In this document: positions 22,151 to 58,058 of the stretch, one piece after another
How the letters are laid out: the number at the start of each line of letters is the position of its first letter
Numbering within the stretch: position 1 is the first letter of the stretch
Assembly (NCBI GenBank): GCA_902623785.1
Contig: CACNVG010000003.1
Location: 1 to 64,000, forward strand
DNA length: 64,000 nt
Direction of reading: 5' to 3'
Source of the DNA: an uncultured Pelagibacteraceae bacterium
GTDB lineage: Bacteria; Pseudomonadota; Alphaproteobacteria; Pelagibacterales; Pelagibacteraceae
Position numbers and translations under genes: made by a program
The notes under the pieces: model-generated
The model's database searches: none
Told to the model about the DNA's origin: nothing
Seen by the model: only the letters and a program-made list of their open reading frames with translations

Positions 22151-22769
22151 GCTTTTTACAGCTGATACACCTAATGGAAAAAAGATCTCAATTATGCTTG
22201 AGGAAATTCAATATGAGTACAAAGTTACGAAGGTCAATTTGTTTAAAAATGAACAATTTAACCCTGAGTTTAAAAAGATAAGTCCATTTAGTAAAATCCC
22301 AGTAATTAAAGATCATGAGAATGGTAAAACAATTTTTGAGTCCGGTGCGATCTTGATCTACCTAGGTAATAAAAGTGGTAAGTTTTATGACGAAAAAAAT
22401 AGAGACCAAATTAATCAATGGTTAATGGCCCAGATGGGTTATGTTGGACCAATGCTAGGCCAGCATCATCAGTTTCATCATTATAATCCAGGAAAAAGTA
22501 AATTTGGGGAAGATAGATATTTCAAAATTTCAAAGGCAATCTATAACGATTTAGATCTAAGATTATCTCAATCAAAATTTTTAGCAGGTGAAGGGTACTC
22601 AATCGCTGACATAGCTACATGGCCCTGGATTGCTAGACATGACTGGCATGATATCGGATTAAAGAAATATAAAAATTTAACAAGATGGTATTGTGAAATT
22701 GCAGAGAGAGAAGCAGCTCAAAAAGGTTATGATTTTATGAAAAGAGGAGAAAAAATACCAAAACCTTAA
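22143..22769 (+). CDS. Glutathione S-transferase family protein (YfcG/YghU-like)
   Basis: This is a thioredoxin-fold N-domain plus helical C-domain protein of 208 residues. I chose the GTG at 22143, which gives (M)IELFTADTPNGKKI, matching the start of YfcG/YghU-like proteins. A TTG at 22131 would add four residues. TPNGKKISIMLEE and the SPFSKIPVI cis-proline region (about 48-56) form the glutathione site, and ESGAILIYL is the conserved gamma-glutamyl-binding motif. Relatives have disulfide-reductase or peroxidase activity. It overlaps the reductase stop by 8 bp and so belongs to the same transcript. Confidence 0.88.
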   Translation: MIELFTADTPNGKKISIMLEEIQYEYKVTKVNLFKNEQFNPEFKKISPFSKIPVIKDHENGKTIFESGAILIYLGNKSGKFYDEKNRDQINQWLMAQMGYVGPMLGQHHQFHHYNPGKSKFGEDRYFKISKAIYNDLDLRLSQSKFLAGEGYSIADIATWPWIARHDWHDIGLKKYKNLTRWYCEIAEREAAQKGYDFMKRGEKIPKP

Positions 22770-23263: not shown

Positions 23264-24583
23264 ATGTTTATAAAAAAGAACATAAATAATTTATTTTATT
23301 TTTTTGTTATCGTTCATCTGGTAATTTGGACTTTGGTTCCTACCCTTACTAATAAAAATTTACCTCTCGATGTAATTGAGGCTCTTGCTTGGGGGAGTAA
23401 TTTGGATTGGGGCTTCACAAAGCACCCTCCTGGAAGTGCTTTTTTTCCTGAGATATTTTTTCAAATTTTTGGATCACAAGATTGGGCATTTTATTTATTA
23501 AGTCAAATATTTGTAGTCTCTTCATTTTATATTGTTTGGCTTTTTGCTAATGAATTTTTCAAAAATAAGATTTTGAGTCTTTTATCAATTGTTATATTGG
23601 AAGGAATATATTTTTATAATTTTACTACACCTGAATTCAATGTAAATGTATGCCAAATGCCTTTTTGGGCCTTGACAATTTACTTGTCATGGAAAATTTT
23701 AATTAAAAAAGAATTAAATATTTTTTTTCCAATTGGTTTAGGACTTGTTGCTGCAATTGGTTTTTTATCAAAATATTTGTTTATTTATCTTTTGTTATCT
23801 ATTTTTTTAATATCCTATTATTTGTTTTTCATTAGAAAAAAAATAAAATTTAATTTTAAACACTACATACCTCTAGAAGTTTTTTTTGTGGCCTTAATTC
23901 CACACTTGATTTGGCTTTTTCAAAATGATTTTATTACAATAAAATATGCCTTGAGCAGATCAGGAATAGATGATTATAATTTTTTAGATCACTTTAAATA
24001 TCCTATAATATTCTTTGTAAAACAAATTGTAGTACTTATACCTTTTTTTGTTCTGGTTTATTTTTTGATTAAAAGAATAAAAATAAGAATTGATTTGAAA
24101 GATGATAAAAATCTTTTCTTAATAGCAATAAATATTATACCAATCATGCTAATATTGTTTACCTCAATTATTTTCGGTTCAGAAATAAGAACAATGTGGA
24201 TGGCACCCTTTTATCTTTTTTTTGGAGTTTTAGCACTAAGCTTATTCGAAATCCATGAAAACAAAGAAAAGCTTTTAGATTTTTTAAAACCTCTTTTAAT
24301 TCTATTTTTTTTATCACCTATTACATATGCTGCGATATCTTTGATTAAAGATGACAAAAGAACAGACTACGATGGACATAACGAGTCAATTGAGGTGGCA
24401 AAAGTTTGGGAAAAAAATTTTGAACTACCTATCAATGTAGTTTTAGGTGATGAATGGCACGCTGGTAATATATCTTACCATATGAAAAGTCGACCTATAT
24501 GGCTTGGTGAAATAAACCAAACAAATGTTGATAAGTTAGATGTCTATATTTGTGTTAAAAAAGTTTGCGTAGGTCATAGATGA
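23264..24583 (+). CDS. Membrane glycosyltransferase, GT39/ArnT-like
   Basis: This is a polytopic inner-membrane protein of about 439 residues with roughly ten hydrophobic helices. I chose the ATG at 23264; an in-frame TTG 18 bases upstream is also possible. The N-terminal periplasmic loop LDVIEALAWGSNLDWGFTKHPP has the acidic residue and the W-G-x-x-K-H-P-P signature of ArnT/PMT-like enzymes that use polyprenyl-phosphate sugars. It overlaps the next gene, a polyprenyl-phosphate sugar synthase, by 4 bp. The pair likely makes and then uses a lipid-linked sugar to modify lipid A, another glycan or a protein. Confidence 0.82.
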   Translation: MFIKKNINNLFYFFVIVHLVIWTLVPTLTNKNLPLDVIEALAWGSNLDWGFTKHPPGSAFFPEIFFQIFGSQDWAFYLLSQIFVVSSFYIVWLFANEFFKNKILSLLSIVILEGIYFYNFTTPEFNVNVCQMPFWALTIYLSWKILIKKELNIFFPIGLGLVAAIGFLSKYLFIYLLLSIFLISYYLFFIRKKIKFNFKHYIPLEVFFVALIPHLIWLFQNDFITIKYALSRSGIDDYNFLDHFKYPIIFFVKQIVVLIPFFVLVYFLIKRIKIRIDLKDDKNLFLIAINIIPIMLILFTSIIFGSEIRTMWMAPFYLFFGVLALSLFEIHENKEKLLDFLKPLLILFFLSPITYAAISLIKDDKRTDYDGHNESIEVAKVWEKNFELPINVVLGDEWHAGNISYHMKSRPIWLGEINQTNVDKLDVYICVKKVCVGHR

Positions 24584-27268: not shown

Positions 27269-27643
27269 ATGAAAAAATTAACATGCCACTGCGGAACAAT
27301 AGAAATAAAAATAAAATTGAAAGAAAAATCAAATGATTACTACAGATGTAACTGCTCTATTTGTAAAAGAAAAGGCTCGATCACAACAGTAGTGGATACG
27401 AAAGATTTAGAAATAGTTAAGGGTGCGGAAAAAATTAAATGTTACCAATTCAATACAAAAGCAGCAAAGCATTTTTTTTGCTCAGTCTGTGGAATAAATA
27501 CACATAATTTAAGAAGGAGTGATCCAAATACATATGGAGTGAACGTTGGATGTTTAGAAGATATCTCAACCAAAGAATTATTTGAACTTAATGTAAGAGT
27601 AAACGATGGTAAAAATCATAAGATGGATAGAATTGAAAAATGA
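27269..27643 (+). CDS. GFA-fold (Mss4-like) zinc protein, first tandem copy
   Basis: This 124-residue protein belongs to the glutathione-dependent formaldehyde-activating enzyme (Gfa/CENP-V) fold. The cysteine pattern is Cys6-His-Cys8, Cys27/29/32 (YRCNCSICKRKG) and Cys71-x2-Cys74 (FFCSVCGINTH), which in the family bind a structural and a catalytic zinc. Family members bind glutathione adducts, but formaldehyde activation by Gfa has been questioned, so the role is open. It is followed, with a 4 bp overlap, by a second homologous copy: a tandem duplication. Its upstream gap is shared with umuD. Confidence 0.85.
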   Translation: MKKLTCHCGTIEIKIKLKEKSNDYYRCNCSICKRKGSITTVVDTKDLEIVKGAEKIKCYQFNTKAAKHFFCSVCGINTHNLRRSDPNTYGVNVGCLEDISTKELFELNVRVNDGKNHKMDRIEK

Positions 27644-28011
27644 TTAAAAAATTAAGATGTCATTGTGGTGAAGTTGAAGCTGAAGTAAATATACCTGAAA
27701 CAGGTATTGAAAAATTCATGAGATGCAATTGTTCTTTATGTAAAAGAAAAGGATACATAATTGGTGTAATAGGGGAAAACGATTTCAAATTAATTAAAGG
27801 TGAAAAAATATTAAAACTTTACCAATATTATACAAAAGTTGCCAAACACTATTTCTGTTCTATATGTGGTATTCATACTCACAATAGACCAAGAATTAAT
27901 CCAAAAATTTATGGAATAAACATTGCATGTATTGACGAAATAGATACTTTTGCTTTAAAAGATGTTCCAGTCAATAATGGTGAAAATCACCCATTAGACC
28001 AAAAAAAATAA
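27640..28011 (+). CDS. GFA-fold (Mss4-like) zinc protein, second tandem copy
   Basis: This is a 123-residue paralogue of the preceding gene with the same cysteine framework: RCHCGEVEAEV at the N-terminus, MRCNCSLCKRKG and YFCSICGIHTHN. It shares the downstream segment NPKIYGINIACIDEI, equivalent to NTYGVNVGCLEDI in copy one. The two copies overlap by 4 bp and the glycerate kinase gene starts 1 bp after its stop, so the three are likely one transcript. It might form a heterodimer with copy one. The substrate is unknown; one-carbon or glutathione-adduct chemistry is plausible from the fold only. Confidence 0.85.
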   Translation: MIKKLRCHCGEVEAEVNIPETGIEKFMRCNCSLCKRKGYIIGVIGENDFKLIKGEKILKLYQYYTKVAKHYFCSICGIHTHNRPRINPKIYGINIACIDEIDTFALKDVPVNNGENHPLDQKK

Positions 28012-53827: not shown

Positions 53828-54023
53828 GGATGGGCAATTTAATAGTATTAATTTTTTTTGCTATTGTGACATTTTTATCACTAAAAAAGTTAAAATATAC
53901 AGTATTTTTCTCATTTACAACTTGTGGTCATCAGTTCAAAATCATAAAAATTATACATTTTCTGATTTTACTGGTATAGACACCCTTGTAATTAATTAAT
54001 TAATAACAAAGAAAGAGCATAAC
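53828..54023. other. Intergenic region upstream of the outer-membrane barrel gene
   Basis: This 196 bp gap lies between divergent cyclophilin and barrel genes. It is AT-rich with a TAATTAATTAATTAATAA run directly before the AGAAAGAG ribosome site of the barrel gene. A long leader or strong control region is likely for an abundant envelope protein, but I could not assign a promoter with confidence, and the short reading frames inside it do not look coding. Confidence 0.45.
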
Positions 54024-54683
54024 ATGAAAAAACTAGTTTTAAGCATTCTTCTTTTGATGGGCTTTGTAACTAATTCATACGCTACTGGTTCGGTAGGTGT
54101 TACATTTAGTAACGCTGATGTTAATTCAACTGTAAAAGATGATATTGACAACAACGGTTCAACTGACACTACTAAGAATTTAAGCAATGATGTTACATTT
54201 GCATCAATTTTCTTTGAAAAAGCACTTAATGATAGCATGAGTGTTGGTATTGATTTTATACCATTCGAAGCAGAATTTGAAAGCAGATCTACAACACAGG
54301 CGTCGATCAAAGGTAAAACAACTTCATCAACTTCAGGAACTAACAAAGGTACTGCGGATGTAAGTAGACATTTAACATTCTACGTACAGCCACAAAAAGA
54401 AATAAGAGATGGCCTTAAAGTTTTTGGAACATTTGGATTAGTAAAAGCAGATGTTGAATCATTAGTTCAATCAGTTTCATCAACAAATAAAACTGTTGAG
54501 CAAAGCTTAGATGGAATGAAATTAGGCCTAGGTCTTAAAAAAGAAACAGGTTTTGGTTTTATAAAACTTGAGTACAGTGAAACAGACTATGATGATATTG
54601 AAGCTACAACATCAAATAACACGAAAGTAACAGCAGATATTGATACAGACATTTTAGCATTATCTGTAGCTAAATCGTTCTAA
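54024..54683 (+). CDS. Small outer-membrane beta-barrel protein
   Basis: This 219-residue exported protein has a signal peptide (KKLVLSILLLMGFVTNSYA, cleaved before TGSVG). The mature part alternates polar and hydrophobic residues in strand-like stretches (SVGVTFSNADV, VTFASIFFEKAL, MSVGIDFIPFEAEF, HLTFYVQPQKE, LKVFGTFGLVKADV, GFGFIKLEYSETDY) and ends in ALSVAKSF, the aromatic C-terminus recognised by the BAM complex. That fits an eight-stranded barrel of the OmpA/OmpW kind. Function is unknown. A Rho-independent terminator shared with the opposite gene follows. Confidence 0.75.
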   Translation: MKKLVLSILLLMGFVTNSYATGSVGVTFSNADVNSTVKDDIDNNGSTDTTKNLSNDVTFASIFFEKALNDSMSVGIDFIPFEAEFESRSTTQASIKGKTTSSTSGTNKGTADVSRHLTFYVQPQKEIRDGLKVFGTFGLVKADVESLVQSVSSTNKTVEQSLDGMKLGLGLKKETGFGFIKLEYSETDYDDIEATTSNNTKVTADIDTDILALSVAKSF

Positions 54684-54704
54684 ATATTAATCTTAGAAAT
54701 ATTT

Positions 54705-54740
54705 AAAAAAACCCCTCATTAAAACTGAGGGGTTTTTTTT
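54705..54740. terminator. Bidirectional Rho-independent terminator
   Basis: CCCCTCA (54712-54718) pairs with TGAGGGG (54726-54732) around the loop TTAAAAC. The stem is flanked by A7 (54705-54711) and T8 (54733-54740), so it works on both strands. It ends the barrel gene; the opposite gene's stop codon lies at its edge. Confidence 0.92.
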
Positions 54741-55477
54741 TATCGAAATTTAAAATCATTATTAATTTTTAGAATATTTTCTTTAATCAAATTTGTTTTA
54801 TTTTTTAATACAGAGTCCTTTTTAATCTTTTTTCTTAAATACTCGTTATTTAAAACTAGGAAAGAAAATGTTTCTGCCATATCCTCAGGAACACTAGTTT
54901 TCGCATAGTCGGTAAAAAATCCTTCAGTAAAATTTAGAGGAGATAAACTAAAATATTCTTTACATGTTGAACATGCGGAATATTTAAATCCAGGTTTATT
55001 AAATTCTATCCATTTACTCTCACTAAAATAATCATTAAAATTTTTATGAATTATGTGAAATATTTCATGATGCAAAACTCTTTGTAAAATTTTATCTTTT
55101 GTATTAATATTTAAGATAATTGTTTTCATCTCAGGATTTGCAAAACCTATTGCTGGAATATCTGATACAGTTAAATTTTTACAGATAACGATGAATTTTA
55201 AATTAATCTTTTTCACGAATTTTTTATCGTAAAAATCCATATTTTTTTTGATTAAAGAAAATTTTCTTTTAAGTTGATCTTTTTTAGTTTGTTCGCAATT
55301 TACACTATTAATCCCCACACCGGCAGAAAAGTTTTTACCTGCAATTAAGTACTTTATACCTTTTGAGTCTGTTTCATAAATTTCTAAATTTGGTATTTTA
55401 ATAAGTTCATATATTTGGTCAGATTTTGCATGAAAAGGTATTATAAATAGAAGTATTAGTAGCAAGTTTAATTTCAT
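54740..55477 (-). CDS. Exported zincin-like metallopeptidase of unknown role
   Basis: No named family was recognised, but the chemistry is visible. This 245-residue protein has a signal peptide (KLNLLLILLFIIPFHAKS). The zinc motif HEIFH is at residues 137-141 and a downstream EDMAE at about 198-202 probably supplies the third ligand, an arrangement of gluzincin-type peptidases. A Cys-x2-Cys pair (SACSTCKEY, about residues 168-174) could form a disulfide or small metal site. It is probably periplasmic. It is divergent from the small peptide and speB genes (51 bp gap) and shares a terminator with the barrel gene. Confidence 0.7.
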   Translation of the reverse strand: MKLNLLLILLFIIPFHAKSDQIYELIKIPNLEIYETDSKGIKYLIAGKNFSAGVGINSVNCEQTKKDQLKRKFSLIKKNMDFYDKKFVKKINLKFIVICKNLTVSDIPAIGFANPEMKTIILNINTKDKILQRVLHHEIFHIIHKNFNDYFSESKWIEFNKPGFKYSACSTCKEYFSLSPLNFTEGFFTDYAKTSVPEDMAETFSFLVLNNEYLRKKIKKDSVLKNKTNLIKENILKINNDFKFR

Positions 55478-55528
55478 TTATTGAATAAGATAATATTAGA
55501 ATTAAACAAAATATGATATAATATTTTT

Positions 55529-55648
55529 ATGAAAAAAAAAAAATCATCTGATTTTAAATCAGTACCAAACTTATTTACAAGCAAGTATATATTTTATTAT
55601 TACGGTTTTTTTTGGTTTGTATTAATTTTGATTGTCTTTTTTTCATGA
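55529..55648 (+). CDS. 39-residue single-helix membrane peptide overlapping speB
   Basis: An unannotated small frame, ATG 55529 to TGA 55646-55648. The peptide has a charged start (MKKKKSSDFK), then YYYGFFWFVLILIVFFS, one transmembrane helix ending the protein. Its TGA overlaps the speB ATG as ATGA, the coupling arrangement seen throughout this genome. A TATAAT at 55517-55522 lies only 6 bases before its ATG, hinting at a leaderless message or that the real promoter is elsewhere. Function is unknown; it might be a tiny transporter subunit, anchor or coupling leader. Confidence 0.55.
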   Translation: MKKKKSSDFKSVPNLFTSKYIFYYYGFFWFVLILIVFFS

Positions 55649-56607
55649 AAAAAAAAAATAAAGATCCGATTCAGCCTATAAGTGGAACCGTGGTTCCAAG
55701 ATTTGCCGGTTCAAGTACCTTCGCAAGATTACCGGAACTAAGGGATGTAAGTAGCTGCGATGTAGCAATAGTTGGTATACCTTTTGATGCAGGTACAAGT
55801 TATAGACCCGGTGCTAGATTTGGTCCTCAGAGCATAAGACAGGCTTCAAGGCATTTAAGGACAAATTACCATCCAAATTATGATGTTGAACCATTTAAAG
55901 TTCAGCAAGTTGCTGACGCTGGGGATATTACCTGTAATCCATTTAATATTGATGAAGCAATAAAACAAATAGAAAAAGGAGCTTATGATTTACTTAAAAA
56001 AACTGGGAGAATTATAAGTATGGGAGGAGATCACACGATAGCATTTCCACTTTTAAGAGCTATTAATAAAATTAATGGAGGACCTGTAGCACTTGTTCAT
56101 TTTGATGCACATTTAGATACATGGGATACATACATGGGTGCCCCTTATACTCATGGAACTCCTTTTCGAAGAGCTAGAGAAGAAAATTTATTTTTAGATG
56201 ATGCATCAATGCACGTTGGCATAAGAGGGCCACTCTACAGCAGAGATGATCTTAAAAACGATGAAAGTTTTGGATTTAAAACAATTCATTGCGATGAATT
56301 CCAAAGTGAGGGAGTTGATAAAATTGTTCAAAGAATAAGAAAAAGAGTAGGTGACAATCCATTATATTTATCAATAGATATAGATGTTCTTGATCCAGCA
56401 TATGCACCAGGTACGGGAACACCTGAGATAGCGGGTATGTCTACAAGAGAAATGGTAAACGTCATAAGAGGATTATCAGGAATGAAACTGATTTCGGCGG
56501 ATGTTGTGGAAGTCTCCCCTGCTTACGATCACGCTGAGGTAACATCATTAGCTGCAGCAACAATAATCTATGAAATCACTAATTTATTTGCAAAAGTAAA
56601 AGGATAA
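55645..56607 (+). CDS. speB: Agmatinase/guanidinobutyrase-family ureohydrolase
   Basis: This manganese ureohydrolase cleaves a guanidino compound to an amine plus urea. I chose the ATG at 55645 (MKKKNKDPIQPISGTVV, 320 residues) because it fits the family start and overlaps the upstream peptide stop. Metal motifs are complete: SMGGDHT, HFDAHLDTW and SIDIDVLDPAYAPGTG. YRPGARFGPQSIR near residue 54 is also typical. Agmatine (giving putrescine) or 4-guanidinobutyrate (giving GABA) are likely substrates; which one is not decidable by eye. An aldehyde dehydrogenase follows 14 bp later. Confidence 0.93.
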   Translation: MKKKNKDPIQPISGTVVPRFAGSSTFARLPELRDVSSCDVAIVGIPFDAGTSYRPGARFGPQSIRQASRHLRTNYHPNYDVEPFKVQQVADAGDITCNPFNIDEAIKQIEKGAYDLLKKTGRIISMGGDHTIAFPLLRAINKINGGPVALVHFDAHLDTWDTYMGAPYTHGTPFRRAREENLFLDDASMHVGIRGPLYSRDDLKNDESFGFKTIHCDEFQSEGVDKIVQRIRKRVGDNPLYLSIDIDVLDPAYAPGTGTPEIAGMSTREMVNVIRGLSGMKLISADVVEVSPAYDHAEVTSLAAATIIYEITNLFAKVKG

Positions 56608-56621
56608 GTTAATTTCCCATC

Positions 56622-58058
56622 ATGTCTGACAAAAAAAAATTTTATATTAATGGTAAATGGGTTTCACCAAAAAGTAATAAAAGTATTAAAGTAATAAATC
56701 CCGCAACAGAAGATGTATGTGCAGAAATATCTTTAGGTTCAAAAGAAGATGTTAATGATGCAGTTTTGTCTGCAAAAGATGCTTTTAAAACATGGGCATT
56801 CTCTTCAAAAAAAGAAAGACTAGAACCACTAGAGAAATTATATGAACTATATAAAAAAAGATGGTCAGATATAGCAGAGACTATAACTACAGAAATGGGA
56901 GCTCCAAAAGATTTTTCAACAAAATTACAAGCTGGAACAGGCGCTGCTCATATTAAAACATTTATTAGATATCTTAAAGAATTTGATTTTGAGAAACCAT
57001 TAGGGGAACACGCAAAAAACCAAAGACTTATTTATGAACCCAAAGGTGTATGTGCTTTAATAACACCTTGGAACTGGCCAATGAACCAAACCTGTTTGAA
57101 AGTTATGCCCGCTTTAGCGTCAGGATGCACTATGATACTAAAACCATCTGAAGTAGCACCGTTATCAGCTATGATATTAACAGAATTAATTGATGAAGCA
57201 GGTTTTCCTCCAGGAGTTTTTAATTTGGTTAATGGAGATGGTGCAACAACTGGAGATGCTTTAACAAGCCATCCAGATATAAATATGATCTCATTTACAG
57301 GATCAACTAGGGCTGGAGCTTTAATATCGCAAAATGCTGCTAAAGATTTCAAAAGGGTTAGTCTTGAACTTGGTGGAAAAGGAGCAAATATAATTTTTAA
57401 AGATGCAGACCCTGAAGCTATCGAGAGAGGAGCTTTGAGGTGCTTTAGAAACTCAGGGCAATCATGTAATGCACCAACAAGAATGCTTGTCGAAAAAAGT
57501 ATGTATGATGAGGCGGTTGAAAGAGTAAAAAAATTTGCGAATAGTATGAAAGTTGGAGATCCTAAAAAGGAAGGTGAACACATCGGCCCAGTAGTATCTG
57601 AAGTACAGTACGAAAAAATACAGTCGCTTATTCAAAAAGGTATCGATGAAGGTGCTAAACTTGTTGCAGGGGGAGTGGGAAAACCTGATGGATTAGATAA
57701 AGGTTACTTTGTTAAACCTACAGCCTTTGCCGATGTTAATAATCAAATGGAAATTGCAAGAACTGAAATTTTTGGTCCAGTACTTTCAATTATACCTTTT
57801 GAAAATGAGGAAGAAGCAATAAACATTGCAAATGATACTGATTACGGTCTAACTAATTACATTCAAACTAAAGATAAAGAAAAAGCCAATAGAGTTGCAA
57901 GAAGGCTTAGATCTGGAATGGTAGATGTTAACGGAGCTGGTATAGCGGTCGATGCACCGTTCGGAGGATTTAAACATTCTGGTATAGGTCGTGAGGCAGG
58001 AAAAGAAGGCTTATTGGAATTTTTAGAAGTTAAATCAGTTGGTGGGTGGGCTAATTAG
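56622..58058 (+). CDS. NAD(P)-dependent aldehyde dehydrogenase
   Basis: This 478-residue enzyme oxidises an aldehyde to an acid. The oxyanion segment ITPWNWPMNQ, FTGSTRAGALI (cofactor loop), SLELGGKGANII with the general-base glutamate, SGQSCNAPTR with the nucleophile cysteine and EIFGPVLSII are in order. It is downstream of speB in what looks like one transcript, so aminoaldehydes from polyamine breakdown (for example 4-aminobutyraldehyde) are plausible substrates. An aminotransferase or oxidase feeding it is not adjacent. It overlaps the convergent deacetylase by 8 bp. Confidence 0.93.
   Translation: MSDKKKFYINGKWVSPKSNKSIKVINPATEDVCAEISLGSKEDVNDAVLSAKDAFKTWAFSSKKERLEPLEKLYELYKKRWSDIAETITTEMGAPKDFSTKLQAGTGAAHIKTFIRYLKEFDFEKPLGEHAKNQRLIYEPKGVCALITPWNWPMNQTCLKVMPALASGCTMILKPSEVAPLSAMILTELIDEAGFPPGVFNLVNGDGATTGDALTSHPDINMISFTGSTRAGALISQNAAKDFKRVSLELGGKGANIIFKDADPEAIERGALRCFRNSGQSCNAPTRMLVEKSMYDEAVERVKKFANSMKVGDPKKEGEHIGPVVSEVQYEKIQSLIQKGIDEGAKLVAGGVGKPDGLDKGYFVKPTAFADVNNQMEIARTEIFGPVLSIIPFENEEEAINIANDTDYGLTNYIQTKDKEKANRVARRLRSGMVDVNGAGIAVDAPFGGFKHSGIGREAGKEGLLEFLEVKSVGGWAN

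Follow-up and report, generated by a model that had tools for sequence, protein, structure and literature searches.

A 39-codon reading frame that runs into the start codon of speB in a marine alphaproteobacterium poses the question of whether it is a gene in its own right and, if so, whether it serves agmatinase or something else. An earlier note on this DNA, made from the letters alone, had described the frame as a membrane peptide coupled to speB, and had proposed for it either the role of a tiny transporter or anchor subunit or that of a leader controlling agmatinase synthesis. The window analyzed here is the whole stretch of 64,000 nucleotides in which the frame (ORF1) lies, and it belongs to a genome of 906 kb that is 75% complete. 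ORF1 translates as MKKKKSSDFKSVPNLFTSKYIFYYYGFFWFVLILIVFFS*, and its TGA does overlap the start of the next gene as ATGA, the product of that gene matching PF00491 in Pfam (E 3.7e-96) and scoring above the cut-off for agmatinase in NCBIfam. The single hydrophobic helix announced behind lysines was recovered as well, the peak 17-residue hydropathy stretch (residues 21-37, mean 2.25) being aromatic and preceded by a lysine-rich N-terminus. The TATAAT hexamer lies 6 bases before the ATG, as had been noted, and a TGA directly 5' of it gives it the look of an extended -10 site. Transcription from such a site would begin at or just before the ORF1 ATG, which fits leaderless translation, and we accordingly predict a leaderless start; the hexamer is retained in part of the close clade only. 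The features of the locus, and of two other places in the window discussed below, are collected in Table 1.

Table 1. Features of the window, numbered from its first nucleotide.
Feature	Position	Strand	Basis or remark
Divergent 245-aa gene, usual left neighbor of the speB site	54740..55477	-	Locus comparison
51-bp gap between divergent gene and ORF1	55478..55528	+	Similar gap directly before speB in ORF1-free genomes
TATAAT, promoter -10-like site	55517..55522	+	6 bases upstream of ORF1 ATG
ORF1, predicted 39-aa single-helix membrane microprotein	55529..55648	+	ORF reading, homolog search, pN/pS
Direct repeat copy 1, ATG + 11 A, ORF1 start	55529..55542	+	14-mer search
speB, agmatinase/arginase-family gene	55645..56607	+	Overlaps ORF1 by ATGA
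Direct repeat copy 2, speB start	55645..55658	+	14-mer search
Empty site, overlapping 3' ends of GST-like and dksA-like genes	22766..22769	.	Elsewhere ORF1 + ORF2 behind dksA, 67/115
Empty site, ATGA overlap of GT39-like and GT2-like genes	24580..24583	+	ORF2 place in some other genomes

The frame proved to be conserved among close relatives, with ORF1 homologs in 110 of 201 same-genus genomes, its own included (E <= 1e-3), one of which (G031) carries an internal stop. Purifying selection was evident in 15 distinct speB-linked homologs of its own clade, where pN/pS was 0.165 in the ORF1 frame (codon bootstrap 0.078-0.262) against 0.81 and 1.04 in the two other frames. Variable columns numbered 10, 6 and 28 at codon positions 1, 2 and 3, and none of 200 column shuffles reached so low a pN/pS. 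A broader set of 56 distinct ORF1 sequences of the NP[IV]TY type gave 0.182, the controls pertaining to the speB-linked set. The overlap with speB was kept in all 13 junctions read (seven GTGA, four ATGA and two with an 8-base overlap by coordinates), and thus survives where speB starts with GTG and not ATG. Judged from these sequence comparisons, ORF1 is a genuine, selectively conserved SAR11 gene for a predicted membrane microprotein.

If ORF1 were a leader peptide whose translation governs speB expression in cis, it would be expected to stay with speB, and its position as first cistron behind a promoter-like site, together with the overlaps kept in the 13 junctions, would suit such a role. 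We placed ORF1 in 115 genomes of the genus, all loci having a profile E of at most 1.2e-7. These comprise 109 of the 110 genomes with E <= 1e-3 and six with a weaker or no match in that search (G016, G017, G032, G054, G063 and G119); G031 was left out, ORF1 being unconfirmed in its locus, and two stretches, from G079 and G037, were too short for use. ORF1 stands before speB in only 23 of the 115, behind a dksA-like gene in 67 and elsewhere in 25, where its neighbors are PhyH-like (6), SDR/argG/photolyase-like (6), aldehyde dehydrogenase (5), carB/MOSC-like (4), DhaL-like (2) or unclear (2); we assigned these neighbor names, dksA-like included, as labels from motifs. Known leader peptides resemble ORF1 in being short frames that overlap the start of an enzyme gene, but ORF1 lies away from speB, beside unrelated genes, in 92 of the 115 placed genomes. 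Conversely, 24 of 30 speB loci read have nothing ORF1-like in front of speB, what ORF1 conserves is its amino-acid sequence, and a search for structured RNA over positions 54000-57500 gave no Rfam match at the gathering threshold. Control of agmatinase by a leader is for these reasons very improbable, and neither this suggestion of the earlier note nor any role tied to agmatinase was borne out. Because most relatives with ORF1 keep it elsewhere, we regard it as a passenger at speB and not as an agmatinase switch. In this genome ORF1 is the leading cistron, with the promoter region before it and speB after it; it would probably lend speB its ribosomes by start/stop coupling, and the effect expected on speB is that of an upstream coupled cistron only. 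In two SAR11 strains speB has been postulated to turn agmatine into putrescine (PMC8437039).

The neighbors of ORF1 are too diverse to reveal its function, and this approach was dropped. At the DhaL-like site of one genome (G162; L122 2331-2501) a membrane-looking frame of 56 residues overlaps the ORF1 start, possibly a further tiny membrane gene.

A different kind of association concerns a second tiny membrane peptide, ORF2, of 31-42 residues with the motif IE[LIF]SGxG..AS..R, which was searched for first by motif and then by profile. ORF2 occurs in 135 of 201 genus genomes (E <= 1e-5), and 62 distinct sequences chosen by motif gave a pN/pS of 0.230, a value that likewise lies outside the controlled set. 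Where ORF1 lies behind dksA it precedes ORF2 in every placed genome (67/67), and at the PhyH and carB/MOSC sites ORF2 is in the ORF1 locus in 10/10. In all nine genomes in which separate loci were read (by ORF1 site four speB, two photolyase, two DhaL and one ALDH; a further 27 with ORF1 at the speB, photolyase or ALDH site contributed no ORF2 locus), ORF2 adjoins GT39-like or GT2-like genes. ORF2 was not found in the window's own genome.

Working partners would be expected to occur together even where their genes are unlinked, and this was observed. Among 117 genus genomes of an order-level scan, 58 have the two genes adjacent, 25 have both apart, 5 have ORF1 only, 10 ORF2 only and 19 neither. 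Nine of ten weak ORF1 matches read turned out to be a diverged type II ORF1 (SWKKKMPFYY...), which shares with type I a lysine-rich start and a YY pair at similar spacing; the homology of the two types is suggested by the profile and by their mutual exclusion in genomes, not by high identity. With type II included, the unlinked genomes divide into 31 with both genes, 8 with ORF1 only, 4 with ORF2 only and 16 with neither (Fisher p 1.6e-5, relatedness ignored). In this table, reading by hand reassigned three genomes (G004, G314 and G331) to the class with ORF1 only and another six to the class with both, and G303, with no ORF1 in the stretch read, was counted as neither; leaving the table without hand moves (25/5/10/19) gives p 1.8e-4. 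Some of the genomes with neither are incomplete, since three of them (G009, G259 and G307) have no dksA or GT2 match either. The pair is nevertheless dispensable, as four near-complete single-contig genomes (G012, G082, G205 and G211) lack both genes, and ORF2 is not strictly required by ORF1, since eight genomes carry ORF1 without detectable ORF2: the window's own and seven others among the 117 (G141, G321, G274 and G347, and with type II G004, G314 and G331). Type II ORF1 near speB has an extra soluble-looking tail of about 30 residues in six loci (L367, L368 and L410-L413), a tail absent in L406-L408.

With moderate confidence, we favor the explanation that ORF1 is a lineage-restricted, probably ORF2-paired accessory subunit of a larger membrane complex, encoded by genes that move between operons. 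By the positive-inside rule ORF1 would be a bitopic inner-membrane protein with a cytoplasmic N-terminus rich in lysine, a single aromatic helix and almost no C-terminal tail. Its most likely working partner would be ORF2, likewise tiny and predicted to be bitopic, with a Glu and the SGxG motif in its helix; the two may pair in the membrane and serve the larger complex together. The idea of a small membrane subunit in the earlier note remains tenable; that a second tiny membrane protein usually goes with ORF1 at its other sites lay outside that reader's view. Alternatively, ORF1 could act alone as an accessory subunit or anchor, its co-occurrence with ORF2 stemming from shared ancestry and earlier linkage. 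That its own clade selects ORF1 without detectable ORF2, and that the co-occurrence test ignores relatedness, give this alternative a realistic though minor chance of being right; it sits less easily with the 31 genomes that retain both genes unlinked, as against 4 with ORF2 only.

On the favored explanation the genes of the pair switch operons, and sites come and go without visible traces. The comparison of loci is consistent with this, the sites being either occupied or cleanly empty. In the window, both the dksA/GST and the GT39/GT2 junctions are empty 4-base overlaps. Between speB and the divergent gene, which we take to be zincin-like, the distance is 162-184 bp with ORF1 in loci where both starts were found, the remaining ORF1-bearing values being misread (119-125, with the GTG start of speB missed, and 6 or 64, with the divergent gene made too long). 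Among the 24 ORF1-free loci of L003-L032 it is 26-54 bp in 22, the rows of 26-38 having run back to a stop, and 791 bp, a misreading, in two (L009 and L010). The 51-bp stretch before ORF1 here is about as long as that before speB in ORF1-free relatives. In the single-contig genomes with neither gene, the space behind dksA measures 2 (G012), 0 (G082), -4 (G205) and 33 bases (G211, where another gene follows dksA), and the GT39/GT2 space 0, -14 and -4 in G012, G205 and G211, G082 not being included. On a quick speB tree spanning 72 genomes, of which 61 have an ORF1 site, at least 10 changes are required to account for the eight site classes, or 20 when absence is scored as a state; these counts are a guide only, because the position at speB is among the sites being counted. 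The label of one genome in this tree (G035) was set by hand from its homolog-search match, its ORF1 locus not having been read.

How such genes might enter and leave is suggested by the ATG + 11 A repeat at the starts of ORF1 and speB, which a search of both strands found nowhere else in the window. Recombination between the 14-bp repeats would excise ORF1 exactly, leaving the promoter and speB. Other speB-linked clades share less of this repeat, and A-rich gene starts are common in genomes of this kind. A bolder version, which we consider doubtful, would make ORF1 and ORF2 nomadic cistrons that travel via short A-rich repeats and together form a new two-part SAR11 membrane device. They would be genes of about 31-44 codons, under selection and present once per genome, which lack their own promoter and borrow promoter and ribosomes from the host operon. 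Since they often open with an A-run behind the ATG and close in start/stop overlaps, they could use short A-rich direct repeats, such as the 14-bp pair seen here, to slip in and out without scars wherever a start codon or the end of a gene offers a place. If true, this would place roaming genes inside genomes whose gene order is otherwise well conserved; in SAR11, 96% of observed gene neighbors match the reference strain, as reported in PMC2217521.

A selfish element would also account for the roaming, and ORF1 could then be a hydrophobic toxin belonging to a type I toxin-antitoxin system, or something similar, being small, single-helical, patchy in presence and shifting in location. Type I toxins typically occur in several copies or paralogs per genome. 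ORF1 has one clear copy per genome instead, second matches having E >= 0.0029; it is overlapped with operon genes, 21 ORF1 members had no match among the anti-phage defense proteins of PADLOC, and no viral relative could be confirmed. We regard a toxin as improbable. A viral origin of ORF1 or ORF2 was rejected, there being no confirmed relatives and only weak matches in PHROGs: ORF1 had no match among phage records, and none of the pattern matches in IMG/VR (347 for ORF1, 22 for ORF2) was confirmed as a relative. A weak likeness to phrog_5885, a viral family of unassigned function, seen in 5 of the 21 members of ORF1 with E 0.0014 at best, covers, for the ORF1 of the window, positions 91-119 of a 127-position profile and may be explained by helix composition.

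Known families gave no name to either peptide. ORF1 had no match over cut-off or at E <= 0.001 in Pfam (21 members) or NCBIfam (4 sequences), and no PDB sequence match at E <= 0.001; ORF2 had none in Pfam, PDB or NCBIfam (2 sequences) by cut-off or E <= 0.001, and weak matches in these databases (E 0.02-1) were taken as chance. CydX of cytochrome bd, KdpF and AcrZ are accessory proteins in membrane complexes, with about 30-50 residues and one helix, which gene callers easily miss. ORF1 can be likened to them by description, with no convincing family match, but differs in that most genomes with it also have another tiny peptide as its companion, and in its shifting gene position. Another tiny one-helix protein is COX4_pro_2 (PF07835), subunit IV of the alphaproteobacterial aa3 cytochrome oxidase, of which ORF1 might be a highly diverged form, given a size and topology that are similar as generally described. 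The genome of ORF1, however, has its own COX4_pro_2 gene outside the window (G000:C9:2903-2998, a 51-aa frame with 38 bits, over the Pfam cut-off), and the family is not among the Pfam matches at E <= 1 for any of the 21 ORF1 members. Because the genome has its own subunit IV, we ruled this identity out as almost certainly wrong.

SAR11 bacteria, with their streamlined genomes, rank among the ocean's most abundant cells, so that a conserved gene pair without a family name is a real gap in their parts list. Neither ORF1 nor ORF2 is named in the literature searched, as far as its text was accessible. An unnamed small protein is in itself usual, since most small proteins lack a functional prediction in a global catalog of 52,550,829 genus-specific small-protein families, whose main text makes no mention of Pelagibacter or SAR11 (PMC11364881). 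A single gene found in numerous host operons, with counterpart sites that are cleanly empty, amounts to a natural experiment, by which the movement and expression of tiny genes in streamlined genomes become testable.

The spread of the pair was assessed at several taxonomic levels. The best 80 of 147 confirmed ORF1-family relatives all lie on contigs of Pelagibacteraceae, Pelagibacter or Pelagibacterales (SAR11). A class-level scan of 221 genomes from 191 genera (>= 80% complete, the window's own genome besides) found ORF1 in its own genome and in one same-genus genome, G203, the only one with a convincing ORF2; four other matches (E 0.007-0.015) were partial and taken as chance. In the order-level scan of 197 genomes both peptides were convincing in their own genus, and ORF2 also in 12 genomes of g5, another genus of the family; matches in genus g4 and family f2 had E 0.008-0.1. 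The ORF1 matches in g5 have weak scores (12 genomes, E 2.8e-4 to 0.05); we accepted them because the six loci read sit at two recurrent places, three flanked by proteorhodopsin-like and ferredoxin-like genes and the other three following a thiolase-like gene. Roughly 5 kb separates ORF1 from ORF2 in two of the g5 loci (L192 and L193), where ORF1 has the proteorhodopsin-like and ferredoxin-like neighbors, and ORF2 adjoins a nadA-like gene in 4 of 6 loci read (L192, L193, L196 and L198). Elsewhere in the window, two adjacent, overlapping and similar small genes (27269-27643 and 27640-28011) are presumably paralogs of the GFA type (glutathione-dependent formaldehyde-activating).
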